This document shows, one piece after another, positions 2,975-61,671 of a stretch of DNA of 64,000 bases. The stretch's first letter is position 1. Each line of letters begins with the position of its first letter. Origin of the DNA: Roseiflexus sp. RS-1 (lineage in GTDB: Bacteria > Chloroflexota > Chloroflexia > Chloroflexales > Roseiflexaceae); contig NC_009523.1 of assembly GCF_000016665.1 (NCBI RefSeq), positions 4,401,501 to 4,465,500 of the forward strand, read 5' to 3'. The notes under the pieces were generated by a model. That model did not search any database. It was given only the letters and a program-made list of their open reading frames with translations, and was not told the origin of the DNA. The position numbers were made by a program, and so were the translations under genes.

Positions 2975-3430
2975 TGCCCCTCATCCCCCCTGCCCCCTTC
3001 TCCCACACGGGGAGAAGGGGGAGTTTGGGCGTCCTGATGGCTGAAACGGGCGATGGCACGCAGGGGCGTGCCAAAACATCTACCCCTGTGAGCATCCCCT
3101 CAACTCCCTTCTTCCACACGGGAAGAAGGGGGAGTTTGGGCGTCCTGATGGCTGAAACGGGCGATGGCACGCAGGGGCGTGCCAAAAAACCTACCCCTGT
3201 GAGCATCCCCACAACCCCCTTTCAACCTGCAAGGGGAGAAGGGGGGGTCTGGACGGACTGATGACCAAAACGAGAGAAGGAACGCAGGGATTTTCCAGGA
3301 AACCTACCCCTGTAAGCTCCCACCTCCTCCTCTCACGCGCGGGAGAGAGGGAAATCGGCACTCCTGATGCCCCACCTGGAGAGTGCAAGACCAGGAGACG
3401 CCAGAAAACCCTCCATCTGTAAGCCAGAAC
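2975..3430 (+). repeat. Degenerate 111-bp tandem repeat, about four units
   Basis: Two near-identical units contain GAGTTTGGGCGTCCTGATGG (at 3021 and 3132, period 111), followed by GGCGATGGCACGCAGGGGCG. Two more degenerate units extend to about 3430. Each unit has a hairpin of the form CCCTTCT..AGAAGGG. A single related unit on the opposite strand lies at about 60958-61060, so the family is dispersed. The region lies between the zinc-ribbon gene and the 3' end of the arabinofuranosidase gene. No gene is seen in 2764-3468. Confidence 0.8.
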
Positions 3431-4968: not shown

Positions 4969-5373
4969 AGCGTCCTCTCACGATGAGATACGGAAAACGC
5001 CGCTATTCTACACGATCCCGGCAATTATAGCAGTTCCCATAGAGGTTGAACCAATTGGACAGGATTGAACACTCCCAGAATCGCGCTCCCAACACGGCGA
5101 CCGAAATGAATTTCGGTCTACGCTCTGCCGGAAACGGGCGCCTCGCACGACACGGCAGACCCGGACAGGGGTCAACGTATCTGAGAACCGCTATAACCGG
5201 TCAGCAGCGTGATCGAGACCGCATCGGTTGGGGATAGGACGCGGTGGACGACACAGCCAGCGCCGCGCAGCGATCCCCCGGACAGGCGGAGGAACGCTAC
5301 GATGCTGTTGACGCTTCACCATGACCGTCACAATAGGACGATCAGCCAGAAGAACGACAGGGGCGCCACGCGG
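4969..5373. other. Intergenic region, 405 bases
   Basis: It holds the complete R165 copy at 5026-5195. Nothing is recognisable in 5196-5373. Confidence 0.6.
5026..5195 (+). repeat. R165 dispersed repeat, copy 2 (complete, about 170 bp)
   Basis: The left end is TATAGCAGTTCCCATAGAGG. The right end, read on the minus strand, is TATAGCGGTTCTCAGATACG. These are imperfect terminal inverted repeats. The palindrome CCGAAATGAATTTCGG at 5101-5116 is uninterrupted and is the clearest empty R116 target. No coding capacity is evident, so this is probably a MITE-like element. Confidence 0.75.
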
Positions 5374-27469: not shown

Positions 27470-27646
27470 GCACCTCCCCCATTGCGTTGCACAGGTTACA
27501 GACCAACATTCATGATACGGGTTATGCGTCGGGGTGCAACATGCTCATGAAGATTGAGCACTTATAGCAGTTCCCATAGAGGTTGAACCAATTTGGACAA
27601 GGTTGAACGCTCCCAGAATCGCGCGCCTCACACGGCGACCGAAATG

Positions 27647-27762
27647 ATGGAGATTGAAAATTAAATCCGCTCTACCGCGCTAGCCGTGGGGCTGAAGCCC
27701 TCGGCTAACCAGGGCAAAGCCCGCCTGCGCGGGCTATACCGGATTATTTCTTCAAAGACCAT
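27647..27762 (+). repeat. R116 palindrome-targeting repeat, copy A
   Basis: 116 bp from ATGGAGATTGAAAATTAAAT to CAAAGACCAT. The ends are imperfect inverted repeats (ATGGTCTTTGA on the other strand). Two internal hairpins are GCCGTGGGGCTGAAGCCC and GCCCGCCTGCGCGGGC. It lies between the G and A of the R165 loop in CCGAAATG^AATTTCGG. Confidence 0.85.
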
Positions 27763-27831
27763 AATTTCGGTCTACGAGAGAAGCAATCCGACATCGTCCG
27801 TCGTCGGACGTGACTCCGCTTGTGCGGGCTG

Positions 27832-27947
27832 ATGGAGATTGAGAATTTAATCCGCTATACCGAACCAGCCGTGGGGCTGAAGCCCTCGGCTATGGAATGC
27901 GAAGCCCGCCTGCGCGGGCTGTAGCGGAATAATTACTCAAAGACCAT
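27832..27947 (+). repeat. R116 palindrome-targeting repeat, copy B
   Basis: 116 bp. Flanks are GGGCTG on the left (27826-27831) and AAGCCC on the right (27948-27953). Together they rebuild the R116 internal palindrome GGGCTGAAGCCC split between G and A. Confidence 0.85.
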
Positions 27948-28067
27948 AAGCCCTCCCTGAGCGCATGGAAGCCCCTGCGGGGCTGGCGTTTCAGTCATCC
28001 TTGCCATACGCTGGCAGGACCTGGGTTGATCTAGCCCATAGGGCTTGCCCGACCTTAGCCAGGGCTT

Positions 28068-28183
28068 ATGAAGATTGAGAAATAAATCCGGTATGCGCCT
28101 CTTGCCGTGGGGCTGAAGCCCTCGGCTATGGAATGCGAAGCCCGCCTGCGCGGGCTGTAGCGGAATAATTACTCAAAGACCAT
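28068..28183 (+). repeat. R116 palindrome-targeting repeat, copy C
   Basis: 116 bp from ATGAAGATTGAGAAATAAAT to CAAAGACCAT. Flanks are GGGCTT and CAGCCC, the same split palindrome read in the other orientation. Confidence 0.85.
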
Positions 28184-28254
28184 CAGCCCGCCGGAGGCGA
28201 AGACGGAACGTTCCAGAAATCCAGTCAAGGGTTCAACGTATCTGAGAACTGCTA

Positions 28255-28352
28255 TAATCCGGTATTCGCCCTTGCCGTCGGGCTAAAGCTCTCGGCTATC
28301 CAGGGCAAAGCCCGCCTGTGCGGGCGAGAGCAGGTTATCGCTCAACAACCAT
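28255..28352 (+). repeat. R116 repeat, left-truncated copy D
   Basis: It begins at AATCCGGTATTCGCCCTTG and ends CTCAACAACCAT. The left terminal repeat is missing, replaced by the right end of R165. It is the most diverged copy. Confidence 0.65.
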
Positions 28353-36542: not shown

Positions 36543-36790
36543 AGTTGAAGAACCGAGAACTAAGAACTGAGAACTAAGAACTGAGAACCAAGAACCAGGA
36601 ACCGAGATCTAAGAACTGAGAACCAGGAACCAAGAACCAGGAATCAAGAACCAGGAACCGAGAACTGAATCCGCCACTAACCAGCCCCCGGTCACAGAAA
36701 GCGCGGCACGTTCAACCTTCAACCCTCAACCTTCAACCTTCAACCTTTCGCCTTCAACCCTCAACCTTCAACCTTCAACCTTTCGCCTTC
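36543..36790. repeat. Two 7-bp tandem repeat arrays between hoxE and hoxF
   Basis: From 36545 to 36668 the units are AGAACTA/AGAACTG/AGAACCA. From about 36711 to 36790 they are CAACCTT/CAACCCT, interrupted twice by TTTCGCC. The last codons and stop of hoxE fall inside the second array. Confidence 0.85.
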
Positions 36791-37311
36791 AACCCCTCCC
36801 CCGTCAGACGTTCAAGCCAGACCTGCACCTGCTCCGGAGTCTGGTGACCGGTGACCGTGCCATCGAAGACGACAGTCGGTGCAATGCCGCACGCTCCCAG
36901 GCAGCGCGCCGTTTCCAGCGACAAACGTCCGTCGGGAGTCGTGTGCCCGGCTTTGATGCCCAGCATTTGTTCCGCCGCTGCCAGGATTGCGGCAGCGCCA
37001 CGGACGTAGCATGCCGTTCCAAGACAGACGACGCAAGAATGCTCACCCTTTGGCGCGAGTGAGAAGAAATGATAGAACGTGGCGACACCGTACACCCGGC
37101 TCGGCGGAAGATGCAGGCTGTTGGCGATGAAGAGCAGCAGATCGGTCGAGAGATAGCCAAACAGTTCCTGCGCGCGATGCAGCACTTCGATCAGCGCGTC
37201 GGGACGATACTGGTGCTTCTTCATCGTGGCTTCGAGCAGTTTGAAGCGGTTATCACCACTGGGGTGCAGCGTCTGATCGGGGGCAGGGGGCTGAAAGCGC
37301 GTGGCAGCCAT
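36775..37311 (-). CDS. hoxE: Bidirectional hydrogenase subunit HoxE
   Basis: A 178-residue NuoE-like subunit with one 2Fe-2S cluster held by CLGTAC and CLGAC. It completes the HoxEFU diaphorase and is found in the five-subunit enzymes of cyanobacteria and some phototrophs. The conserved core starts at about residue 36 (YRPDALIEVLHRAQELFGYL). The C-terminal residues (LKAKG) are encoded by the repeat array. It is the first gene of the operon. Confidence 0.94.
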   Translation of the reverse strand: MAATRFQPPAPDQTLHPSGDNRFKLLEATMKKHQYRPDALIEVLHRAQELFGYLSTDLLLFIANSLHLPPSRVYGVATFYHFFSLAPKGEHSCVVCLGTACYVRGAAAILAAAEQMLGIKAGHTTPDGRLSLETARCLGACGIAPTVVFDGTVTGHQTPEQVQVWLERLTGEGLKAKG

Positions 37312-49846: not shown

Positions 49847-50296
49847 TGCCGGAGTCGCCTGTGCTCTGAAACACGCATCCTTCGGTGTCAGTGCACGACG
49901 CCTCTGGCGCAACCCGCCATCCAAACAGCACGTCGCACATAGCACAGTTCAGCATGATTGAACCACGTGCAGCCAGGGTGCGCGGGCATCTTGCCCGCAT
50001 GAGTGCGCGGGCATGCTGCCCGCATGGGCGCACGGGCATCCTGCCCGCAGGGGTGCGCGGGCGTCCTGCCCGCAGGGGTGCGCGGGCATCTTGCCCGCAT
50101 GGGTGCGCGGGCATCCTGCCCGCATGAGTGCGCGGGCATCTTGCCCGCATGGGCGCACGGGCGTCCTGCCCGCATGGGCGCACGGGCGTCCCGCCCGCAT
50201 GGGTGCGCGGGCATCTTGCCCGCATGGGTGCGCGGGCGTCCTGCCCGCATGGGTGCACGATGCACACGACCCCAGCGCCTGGTGTTGAACGTCGCG
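49847..50296. other. Region between convergent genes
   Basis: It contains the 11-unit palindromic array (49978-50252). Reading frames through the array on both strands are repeat artefacts. Confidence 0.7.
49978..50252 (+). repeat. Tandem palindromic array, 11 units of 25 bp
   Basis: Unit GTGCGCGGGCATCTTGCCCG plus CATGA/CATGG, with small variants. Each unit contains a hairpin of GCGGGCA-TCT-TGCCCGC type. The array is exactly 275 bp long and lies between the 3' ends of Uma2 (plus) and bcp (minus). Confidence 0.9.
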
Positions 50297-51029: not shown

Positions 51030-51156
51030 TACATGCGCTCGGAGCGAGAGCGTCCCGCCCTCGTCGCATCTATGCGCTCGGAGCGAGGGCGTCCCGCCCT
51101 CGTCGCATCCGCGAGGACAAGATGCCCTCGATCCCAGGAGAAATGTGAACACTTAC
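51030..51156 (+). repeat. GGGC-palindrome repeat, two copies
   Basis: GAGCGAGGGCGTCCCGCCCTCG-type hairpins at about 51043 and 51077, ending AGGAGAAATGTGAACACTTAC at 51156, which abuts R116 copy E. Confidence 0.7.
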
Positions 51157-51272
51157 ATGGAGATTGAGAATTTATTCCGCTCCACCGCGCTAGCCTTGGG
51201 GCTGAAGCCCTCGGCTAGCCAGGGCGAAGCCCGCCTGCGCGGGCTGTAGCGGATTATTTACTCAAAGACCAT
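51157..51272 (+). repeat. R116 repeat, copy E
   Basis: 116 bp from ATGGAGATTGAGAATTTATT to CAAAGACCAT. Flanks are ACACTTAC and ACCAGGAG, so this copy is not in a GGGCTG^AAGCCC palindrome but directly after the GGGC-palindrome repeat. Confidence 0.85.
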
Positions 51273-52268: not shown

Positions 52269-52437
52269 GCGACGGCAGCAACAACGTCTGAAACCACCTA
52301 AACGGGTGCTGCAATGGATCGTGCGTGATCTGGGTGATGCTTTCCCCGAAGTCGAGAGCACCCAGAATGTCTGTGGCAGTGAAAGGTGTCTTCTCAGACA
52401 AATGGAAGGACGGCAAGGCGCAGGGAGGGCAGGGCTT
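52269..52437. other. Short remnant region
   Basis: An open stretch encoding RVLQWIVRDLGDAF and, in another frame, VKGVFSDKWKDGKAQG, which resembles the Lys/Gly-rich end of Rpn/PD-(D/E)xK transposase-like proteins. Too short to call; cut off by R116 at 52438. Confidence 0.3.
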
Positions 52438-52668
52438 ATGGAGATTGAGCATTTAATCCGGTATGCGCCTCGTGCCGTCGGGCTGATGGAGATTGAGAAA
52501 TACATCTGGTATGCGCCCTTGCCGTGGGGCTGAAGCCCTCGGCTATGGAATGCAAAGCCCGCCTGCGCGGGCTACGGCGGATTATGTACTCAAAGACCAT
52601 ACGCCCTCGGCTCTACGAGGCGAAGCTCGCCTGCGCGGGCTATACCGGAATACTTACTCAAAGACCAT
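52438..52668 (+). repeat. R116 repeat, copy F, interrupted by copy G
   Basis: The outer copy is 52438-52485 plus 52601-52668. The two parts add up to exactly 116 bp. Outer flanks are GGGCTT and CAGCCA. The interruption is in the outer copy's own GGGCTG^A(A/C)GCCC loop. Confidence 0.88.
52486..52600 (+). repeat. R116 repeat, copy G, nested inside copy F
   Basis: 115 bp, from ATGGAGATTGAGAAATACAT to CAAAGACCAT, same orientation as its host. No bases of the host appear duplicated or lost. Confidence 0.88.
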
Positions 52669-53018
52669 CAGCCATTTCTGCACATACGACCACCTGGAGC
52701 AATACGAAAACACCAGGCGCCGCGCCAGGTATGCCGATGCCGACCTGTTCGACGACGCTGACAACGACCCCTGCCACCGGTACGTTTTCCGGCGCGACCT
52801 GAAGATGCTGGAGGCGCTGGAGGTGAACACTGAAGAGAACACCGTTAAGGTGGACCTGAGCAGGCTTTACGACGGCATTGATATTGCCGGGACGCTATCC
52901 AATCTGACCGGCGAGTGGATCGAGCGGATCACCGCCGATTCCGTCAAGGAAGACGGCAAGGTTAGCAGACACGGCGAACCTGGACTGGAAGCGGATCAAG
53001 CTGCTCATATGGTGGTGA
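52669..53018 (+). pseudogene. 3' remnant of a type III R-M DNA methyltransferase (Mod)
   Basis: Encodes ARYADADLFDDADNDPCHRYVF, LKMLEALEVNTEENTVKVDL and SRLYDGIDIAGTLSNLTGEW, then RITADSV, which matches the C-terminal region of type III Mod subunits as I know it. A frameshift near 52960 moves the ending NLDWKRIKLLIWW into another frame, with stop TGA just before mntA. The catalytic N-terminal part is gone; R116 copies F/G lie at the break. Confidence 0.7.
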
Positions 53019-53020
53019 AC

Positions 53021-53314
53021 ATGAAAACGCTGACCGAAATCCGAAACATTATCAGACAGCAGAGCGACATTCTCGCGGACAAATATGGCGTAGCAGTAGT
53101 CGCCATTTTCGGATCATATGCGCGGGGTGAACAGGTGGGGGAGAGTGATCTTGACCTGTTGGTGGAGTTTCTCCGCCCGATCAGCCTTCTGGAACTTGTT
53201 GGGGCGGAAATTTACCTCAGTGAAGTTCTGGGTGTGAAAGCGGACCTTGTGCCGAAACGCGATGTGCGCGCTGAATTGCGTGAGTCCATTCTCAAAGAGG
53301 CTGTCGCCCTATGA
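53021..53314 (+). CDS. mntA: MntA-type nucleotidyltransferase antitoxin
   Basis: A 97-residue minimal nucleotidyltransferase starting MKTLTEIRNIIRQQSDILA. G-S-x10-D-x-D is exact in FGSYARGEQVGESDLDLLVE. It should adenylylate the HepT partner that overlaps its stop by four bases. The start is a few bases after the Mod remnant's stop, so the pair probably began as an insertion within, or a regular part of, a mod-res operon. Confidence 0.9.
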   Translation: MKTLTEIRNIIRQQSDILADKYGVAVVAIFGSYARGEQVGESDLDLLVEFLRPISLLELVGAEIYLSEVLGVKADLVPKRDVRAELRESILKEAVAL

Positions 53315-53664
53315 GCCGGAACGTCCTCGTCTATATCAAAGACATCCTCCAGAACATGCGGGATGCTGAGCAGTTCATTCAGGGAATGACCTACGAGCAG
53401 TTTGTGGCTGACAAGAAGACCGTGAATGCCATCTTGCGATCCATCGAAGTCATTGGTGAGGCGGCTAAACGCGTCCCTGATGATGTTCGCGCTCAATATC
53501 CCCAAATCCCCTGGAAAGAAATGGCAGGGATGCGGGATAAGGTAATCCACCTCTATTTCAGCGTAGATAACGAAACGGTCTGGCTCGTGGTCAAGGAGCG
53601 CATCCCCTCCTTGCAGCCACTGATCGAACAGATCGTGCGCGATCTGGAGGATCAGGGAACATGA
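53311..53664 (+). CDS. hepT: HepT-like (DUF86) HEPN ribonuclease toxin
   Basis: A 117-residue DUF86 protein. The R-x4-H-x-Y motif is R75-DKVI-H80-L-Y82 in MRDKVIHLYFSVD. The N-terminal helix NVLVYIKDILQNMRDAEQFI and the IGEAAKRVP segment are standard for the family. It overlaps mntA (ATGA) at its start and the broken res gene (ATGA) at its end. Intact, so likely active. Confidence 0.9.
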   Translation: MSRNVLVYIKDILQNMRDAEQFIQGMTYEQFVADKKTVNAILRSIEVIGEAAKRVPDDVRAQYPQIPWKEMAGMRDKVIHLYFSVDNETVWLVVKERIPSLQPLIEQIVRDLEDQGT

Positions 53665-55535: not shown

Positions 55536-56904
<1,369 letters not shown>

Positions 56905-57423: not shown

Positions 57424-60792
<3,369 letters not shown>

Positions 60793-61440: not shown

Positions 61441-61671
61441 ATGGTCTTTGAACAAATAATCCGGTATAGCCCGCGCAGGCGGGCTTTGCCCTGGTTAGCC
61501 GAGGGCTTATGGTCTTTGAGTAAATAATCCGCTACAGCCCGCGCAGGCGGGCTTCGCCCTGGCTAGCCGAGGGCTTCAGCCCCACGGCTAGCGCAGTATA
61601 GCGGATTTAATTTTCAATCTCCATCAGCCCCACGGCTAGCGGGGATAGCGGAATAAATTCTCAATCGCCAT
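61441..61671 (-). repeat. R116 repeat, copy H, interrupted by copy I
   Basis: Outer parts 61441-61508 (68 bp) and 61625-61671 (47 bp) add to 115 bp. Flanks CCGAAATG (61433-61440) and AATTTCGG (61672-61679) are the split R165 palindrome. Confidence 0.88.
61509..61624 (-). repeat. R116 repeat, copy I, nested inside copy H
   Basis: 116 bp from ATGGTCTTTGAGTAAATAAT to TTTTCAATCTCCAT. Its flanks GGGCTT and CAGCCC are the split internal palindrome of copy H. This gives three levels: R165 holds H, and H holds I. Confidence 0.88.

Follow-up and report, generated by a model that had tools for sequence, protein, structure and literature searches.

A nested pair of R116 copies in Roseiflexus sp. RS-1

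The window, 64,000 nucleotides long, comprises bases 4401501-4465500 of the single-contig genome of Roseiflexus sp. RS-1 (5,801,598 bp). Its positions 52438-52668 contain two copies of a repeated unit, one placed inside the other. We refer to this 116-bp unit as R116, the name given in an earlier note on this DNA, with a left arm (L) of 48 bp and a right arm (R) of 68 bp, and direct reading of the locus gives the order L (48 bp), L-R (115 bp), R (68 bp). The earlier note had described an outer copy whose parts sum to exactly 116 bp and a 115-bp inner copy placed in its loop. Both statements were confirmed: 48 + 68 = 116 can be read off the sequence, and the inner copy occupies 52486-52600, after GGGCTG and before ACGCCC. 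The features of the locus are given below; in the motifs here and in the text, a slash marks the point of insertion.

52432-52437, + strand: GGGCTT, left half of the hairpin that hosts the outer copy (sequence)
52438-52485, + strand: left arm of the outer R116, 48 bp, starting ATGGAGATTGAG and ending with the tip half GGGCTG (sequence)
52486-52600, + strand: inner R116 copy, 115 bp, ATGGAGATTGAG...CTCAAAGACCAT, inserted at GGGCTG/A(A or C)GCCC of the outer copy (sequence, linkage, fold)
52527-52538, + strand: hairpin A tip of the inner copy, GGGCTG/AAGCCC, the next nesting target, between 52532 and 52533 (sequence, alignment)
52556-52573, + strand: hairpin B of the inner copy, AGCCCGC-CTGC-GCGGGCT (Rfam CRISPR-DR28 match)
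52601-52668, + strand: right arm of the outer R116, 68 bp, ACGCCC...CTCAAAGACCAT (sequence)

The right half of the host hairpin is CAGCC (52669-52673). The outer copy is thus seated in a GGCTT/CAGCC palindrome, and 6 of the 10 pairs of its flanks are complementary. Folded as single-stranded DNA, the compound gives concentric stems (z -6.4, none of 200 shuffles being equally good), and the fold of the inner copy (52486-52600) consists of a terminal stem with hairpins. Four further R116 arrays of the window are the following:

27647-27762, + strand: single R116, 116 bp, at the tip of an R177 element, GACCGAAATG/AATTTCGGTC (flanks)
27832-27947, + strand: single R116 within a GGGCTG/AAGCCC hairpin (flanks)
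28068-28183, + strand: single R116 within a GGGCTT/CAGCCC hairpin (flanks)
61441-61671, - strand: second nested LLRR compound, 231 bp, within a GACCGAAAT/ATTTCGGTC palindrome (unit profiles, flanks)

The nested locus had no counterpart in the five relatives searched, where matches end at about window position 51150 apart from repeats and short matches, and for this reason the window copy itself has no empty site. Downstream, the open frames at 52988-53664 resemble, by eye, a nucleotidyltransferase and HEPN-type protein pair. Other repeats in the window are arrays of 7-bp units (AAGAACC, CTCACTC and similar) at 36548-36794, 55889-56029 and 60464-60554, a 25-bp array at 49976-50256 and a 111-bp tandem at 2982-3321.

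Structure and conservation of R116

R116 is short (116 bp), gene-less and bounded by terminal inverted repeats, as MITEs are. These repeats are imperfect (ATGGAGATTGAG...CTCAAAGACCAT, 9 of 12 positions matching by eye), near-perfect (ATGGTCTTTGA..) in some relatives, and near-perfect at locus L210. The target site duplication of MITEs is absent from R116, with 0 bp duplicated at the orthologous loci L121/L179 and at nested junctions. An alignment of 34 single units (the 35 intact ones minus one identical copy, L093:3072-3186) in 116 columns showed little or no variation in the ends, the tip and hairpin B, and more in the stems. Single-strand DNA folds of four copies gave a terminal stem with two hairpins, A and B (z -3.1 to -6.5). 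Two-sided changes were found in only 2 of 22 pairs and most stem columns are invariant; with so little variation among the pairs, the covariation signal is weak and says little about an RNA function.

Hairpin B has a four-base loop, and none of the R units in the RS-1 DNA examined is interrupted at its centre. In Rfam it matches CRISPR-DR28 (RF01356) above the gathering cut-off (window 51223-51246, 52551-52574 and 52619-52642), and the search returned nothing else above threshold. A CRISPR identity was rejected, as the DNA between the DR28 matches is the rest of the R unit, repeated genome-wide, and not unique spacers. Tandem 68-bp R arrays may therefore be miscalled as CRISPRs.

Copy number, lengths and arm numbers

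The RS-1 genome contains approximately 200 R116 arrays with quantised lengths. The 231-bp compound used as query gave at least 87 matches in this genome (40 of 294 first-look candidates were scored), the centre motif GGGCTNAAGCCCTCGGCTA has 207 exact copies versus none for the reversed control, and the R end CTCAAAGACCAT, with at most one mismatch, has 343 copies versus 26 for the control. L and R units were located in the loci with HMMs of the L and R parts. The arm census took the first 100 listed of the 207 centres, which were not picked by architecture; none of them is on the minus strand beyond about 1.95 Mb, and the list is possibly incomplete. Ninety-nine centres were resolved, the one at 843005 being unresolvable: 87 show both arms and 12 show no recognised L. 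The 87 two-armed arrays divide into L1R1 (40), L2R2 (17), L3R3 (3), L1R2 (7), L2R1 (7) and others (13). L and R numbers are equal in 60 of the 87 versus 37 expected, the maximum in 5000 shuffles being 54.

Lengths and flanks were analyzed in the 73 arrays with intact ends. LR arrays measure 115-116 bp in 35 of 36 cases, LLRR arrays 231-232 bp in 16 of 18 and LLLRRR arrays 347-348 bp in three of four, that is, the lengths of equal-armed arrays are multiples of 116. The deepest clean R116 nesting observed has three levels, so that the suggestion of nesting "without limit" goes beyond what was found.

Arm numbers are unequal in the remaining 27 of the 87 arrays, which indicates that the 116-bp insertion is not the sole process. 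At the orthologous site L077/L095, the RS-1 genome has two extra 68-bp R units and the L units are equal in number; both arms are altered, unequally, at L071/L101 (2,2 vs 4,3) and L076/L094 (2,1 vs 5,2). An R-only expansion, with six R units in tandem at 68-bp spacing after three L units, is present at L039:966-1371.

Target sites of R116

In the 73 arrays with intact ends, the complementarity between the left and right flanks is 0.84, 0.77, 0.85, 0.84 and 0.82 at positions 2 to 6 and 15% at position 1, the unpaired centre. Over positions 2-8, the two flanks of an array form 5.05 of 7 pairs versus 3.13 between loci, a value not reached in any of 5000 shuffles. Two target families, GACCGAAAT and GGGCT/AGCCC, cover most sites. 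The 18 targets outside both families still give 4.33 of 7 pairs versus 1.99 between loci, and one array per target class (n = 15) gives 4.80 versus 1.96, in both cases with 0 of 5000 shuffles. Of the 73 arrays, 51 have at least five of seven flank pairs; of 35,848 background positions, taken at regular steps within the same loci, 1.9% do. The other 22 arrays have fewer than five, among them L020, with no pairing, and L025, with little.

Palindromic targets unrelated to each other include GTCAGCCTGT/TGAGGCTGAC, TGAACTATCG/CAATAGTTCC, GTCGCACAT/ATGTGAGAAC and AGGCGTGCGGTTG/AAACCGCGCCT, and the nested junction GGGCTG/AAGCCC conforms to the same palindrome-centre rule. It is thus shown statistically that the target is not specific to R116: it is the dyad centre of unrelated palindromes, with the tip of R116 among them. 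The earlier note had overlooked this wider range of targets beyond the element's own loop. Its proposal that every R116 copy carries a target for the next is supported.

Empty sites in related genomes

We searched the flanks of 19 loci of Roseiflexus sp. 629F.7 (G001), a close relative of the same genus, against the RS-1 genome, and those of 34 RS-1 loci against four relatives. An exact empty site was found at L121/L179, where RS-1 shows GACCGAAATA, 116 bp and CATTTCGGTC, and G001 shows GACCGAAATA/CATTTCGGTC. The flanks are 98-100% identical, nothing is duplicated or lost, and the insertion lies at the centre of GACCGAAATACATTTCGGTC. The net difference is 117 bp, with one extra base, at GTCAGCCTGT/TGAGGCTGAC (L140/L185), 232 bp at L014/L165, and 245 bp by end-to-end arithmetic at L016/L166. 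In the reverse direction, an LLRR array of G001 (L079) corresponds to an empty site in RS-1 (L097); for two other G001 loci, the RS-1 site is empty with a larger insert (L066) or messy (L068).

Manual sorting of 27 RS-1/G001 pairs gave 15 sites with both flanks and without R116, some with other differences between the flanks, one (L119) with both flanks and a 26-bp L-like remnant, one (L102/L175) with R116 common to both genomes, and 10 that were one-flank, at a contig end or unalignable. At L016, L034, L122 and L141, no R116 was present beside the aligned flank in the outgroups compared (among G003, G004 and G005), which makes gain in the RS-1 lineage the shorter story; at L034, G004 aligned at both flanks without R116. 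At L191, diverged units lie farther from the aligned flank. For L102, G003-G005 aligned at the left flank only. One site, L062/L082, is single in one genome and nested in the other, and its direction is unreadable because the units and near flanks are diverged.

Linkage and relative age of the nested copies

In 32 LLRR arrays of RS-1, the inner L is linked to the inner R (Mantel r = 0.52, p = 0.0002), and the link persists when only mutually non-pairing columns are compared. There is no link between outer and inner L (r = -0.03) or between outer L and outer R (r = -0.002), and a weak one between outer and inner R (r = 0.21, p = 0.03). L and R are linked in single units, where r ≤ 0 was never reached in 2000 subsamples of 32. 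We read the missing outer linkage as arm turnover or reshuffling, since arms do change alone (L077/L095), or as arms not always coming from one element.

Inner units are nearer than outer units to other genome copies in 24 arrays versus 4 (p = 0.0003, n = 30). A previous set of 33 arrays, drawn from two genomes, pointed the same way, with 20 versus 7 for L and 20 versus 11 for R; the larger linkage and age sets include arrays initially chosen by LLRR similarity. The three closest inner pairs differ by 0.9% and have outers that differ by 12, 19 and 25%, the pair with 12% being a local tandem within one locus. The two L units of an array are no more alike than L units across arrays. These data support that inner L and R are one haplotype, younger than the outer copy and, for L, unlinked to it. 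The earlier note's reading, in which a second copy moved into the first copy's loop without duplication or loss, is supported by the 116-bp empty site, the linkage, the younger age of the inner copy and the near-identical inner copies within dissimilar outers.

R177, IS110 and candidate mobilisers

A frequent host of R116 is R177, a second small MITE-like element of approximately 177 bp with ends TATAGCAGTTCT...AGAACTGCTGTA and tip GACCGAAATGAATTTCGGTC. Its palindromic tip is free of R116 at window 5021-5196 and at L324:991-1167. In the RS-1 DNA examined, R116 L arms carry fused R177-like ends in 17 and 18 cases, a count in which overlapping loci are double-counted. The locus at window 27546-28351 is an R116 with R177-like ends interrupting its left arm; it encloses three further R116 copies (27647-27762, 27832-27947 and 28068-28183).

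Two kinds of gene were considered as mobilisers of R116. An IS110-family element (L324:1302-2461, 1160 bp), rejected in this role, has 40 genome copies, approximately 97-100% identical among the copies compared. Many of the 40 lie near R116, but the target of the element is another repeat: most copies inspected sit in CCTCC(GCG)/TCTCCGCG-type repeats and not in R116 tips. The genome also has two Y1_Tnp (HUH) genes, possibly RAYT. One, at L322:1107-1905, is about 280 bp from an R116 copy, and the other has only weak partial R116 matches within its 3.3-kb locus; proximity of one gene in two was judged not significant at such copy density. A GTAG-type REP head is absent from the 34-copy consensus, read by eye. 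As for an autonomous partner, no L...R pair surrounds a convincing gene-sized gap in 362,517 RS-1 bases (approximately 6% of the genome).

R116 in other Chloroflexales

In the relatives G002-G005 there is a sister family of approximately 70-80% identity, whose tip differs and whose R-like units are repeated, for example at L047. Candidatus Chloroploca and Chloroflexi bacterium L.E.CH.39_1 contain elements of 115-116 bp that have ATGGTCTTTCAG/ATGGTCTTCCAG-type ends (the slash here separating the two ends). Fifteen of these Chloroploca and Chloroflexi MAG elements show 5.20 of 7 flank pairs versus 3.68 between loci (0 of 5000 shuffles). At least five pairs were found in 11 of the 15 versus 2.0% of background; the other four score 1-4 of 7, and some targets are one repeated family. 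Locus L320 of Chloroploca Khr17 has the arrangement L-L-L-R-R, which indicates that nesting is not confined to Roseiflexus. The centre motif alone matches many other phyla, and the whole element was not seen in the other-phyla stretches inspected around these matches.

Proposed insertion mechanism and alternative explanations

We consider it highly probable that R116 is a non-autonomous, MITE-like hairpin that inserts at the centres of palindromes without target duplication or loss, nests in itself and later undergoes arm slippage. The data show the exact 116-bp insertion, the palindrome-centre targets, the nesting and the arm slippage. A putative recombinase, acting in trans, would insert R116 exactly at the dyad centre of a palindrome, perhaps recognising shape instead of sequence. 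The insertion leaves no target duplication or loss, as seen at one exact empty site and statistically. Self-nesting is possible because hairpin A carries the palindromic tip GGGCTG/AAGCCC: with this tip as target, a new copy can enter an old one, from L-R to L-[L-R]-R and L-L-[L-R]-R-R, with a gain of 116 bp at every step. The arms, being direct repeats, may afterwards gain or lose a 48-bp L or a 68-bp R through slippage or unequal recombination, and such a change of R is documented at one orthologous site. The nest in the window is one of these, with two levels. A wider reading, which we offer tentatively and hold to be somewhat doubtful, is that the target is chosen by shape: the recombinase might insert hairpin DNA at the tip of whatever hairpin is extruded or perfectly palindromic. 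Coaxial stacking of mobile hairpins would then give longer and longer structures, and the different hairpin families would serve as mutual landing pads across Chloroflexales.

LLRR might alternatively be one compound repeat of approximately 231 bp that disperses whole, the outcome that the earlier note had set against its own reading. The compound does match end to end at many sites of the RS-1 genome, and the LLRR-versus-empty sites (L014/L165 and L079/L097) are equally explained by arrival of the whole unit. However, single units outnumber every other form (40 of 87 two-armed arrays), LLLRRR adds exactly 116 bp more, outer and inner L are unlinked with little linkage for R, and the closest inner pairs lie in dissimilar outers; dispersal as a whole is accordingly very unlikely. 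A further alternative is a single long hairpin that grew by tandem slippage of its L and R arms separately, nothing having entered the loop. This would account for the two R units gained alone at L077/L095 and for arrays such as L3R6 and L5R3 among the 27 unequal ones. It is slightly less probable still, since arm numbers are coupled well above expectation, LLRR (17) outnumbers LRR and LLR together (14) in the census, L units within an array are no more alike than between arrays, and inner L and R are one haplotype.

That the flanking palindromes are parts of a longer element, or products of insertion, and not pre-existing targets could be suggested by the predominance of the GACCGAAAT and GGGCT/AGCCC families, but the palindrome GACCGAAATACATTTCGGTC is intact and empty in the relative, 28 empty GACCGAAAT tips occur in the RS-1 DNA examined, and the 18 arrays outside both families have flanks that are palindromic on average. 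We regard this as the most improbable of the alternatives. An explanation by survival, in which insertion is unaimed and copies elsewhere are lost by selection since lengthening a hairpin disturbs least, is unlikely, if less so than the others. The insertions do preserve a concentric fold, and the computed flank statistics do not tell targeting from survival. Nevertheless, a 116-bp insert would be expected to do little harm at most other intergenic positions, whereas 70% of arrays are at palindromes versus 1.9% of background, and hairpin B of R116 itself is unused.

Read as insertion at palindrome centres, the R116 arrays preserve, in a form that can be dated, how an element naturally entered its own loop; their empty sites are clean, and they offer a simple, testable rule for target choice, namely the centre of a palindrome of any sequence. 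If experiments bear the rule out, a recombinase that reads DNA shape would be indicated. The build-up of long concentric hairpins and mixed 'Russian doll' repeats in bacterial genomes is likewise explained by such insertion. Such arrays should be annotated with caution, since a CRISPR or a single compound repeat may be called in their place.

Comparison with known systems

The double-hairpin elements of Allomyces mitochondria are mobile hairpins that spread and form compound structures. In cyanobacteria, very small mobile repeats have been reported inside other repeats; by their usual description, these small dispersed repeats are much smaller than R116. The published systems cited below are compared from excerpts of their accounts. 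Repetitive hairpin-forming elements in sponge mitochondrial DNA are mobile and form compound structures (PMC2800124). The Allomyces elements are cited in PMC5910586. Mitochondrial hairpin elements belong to other genomes and have other sequences than R116, and palindrome-centre targeting is not described in these excerpts (PMC2800124).

The small bacterial MITEs Correia/NEMIS, ERIC, RUP and RPE have terminal inverted repeats, long stem-loops and many copies (PMC2229807), and R116 resembles them in small size, terminal inverted repeats, stem-loops and copy number. According to the excerpted account, most members whose insertion site is known duplicate their target and have TA ends, whereas R116 does neither (PMC2229807). 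REPINs are small non-autonomous hairpin elements with many copies, mobilised by RAYT transposases (PMC3116915, PMC2817692). R116 is likewise small, non-autonomous, hairpin-forming and present in many copies, in a genome with two Y1 genes; unlike REPINs, it shows no GT(A/G)G-tagged REP doublet (read by eye), and one Y1 gene of the two is near an R116 copy. The excerpts of the REPIN and RAYT accounts contain neither palindrome-centre insertion nor self-nesting (PMC3116915, PMC2817692).

Titles and abstract openings found in a literature search described neither R116 nor sequence-independent insertion at palindrome centres. Within that literature, the combination of no duplication, unrelated palindromes and the element's own tip is undescribed, whereas insertion at a symmetry axis has itself a precedent in ISPsy8. 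This is one of the insertion sequences that target REP palindromes, together with IS1397, ISKpn1, IS621 and ISPa11 (PMC1525189, PMC11187229), and in Pseudomonas syringae it inserts at the symmetry axis of the predicted hairpin in REP sequences, with a 3-bp duplication (PMC1525189). Like R116, the REP-targeting insertion sequences enter palindromic repeats, ISPsy8 at the symmetry axis. As far as the excerpts describe them, they are full elements with a transposase that target one REP family, whereas R116 is gene-less, has 116 bp, makes no duplication and enters unrelated palindromes as well as its own tip.
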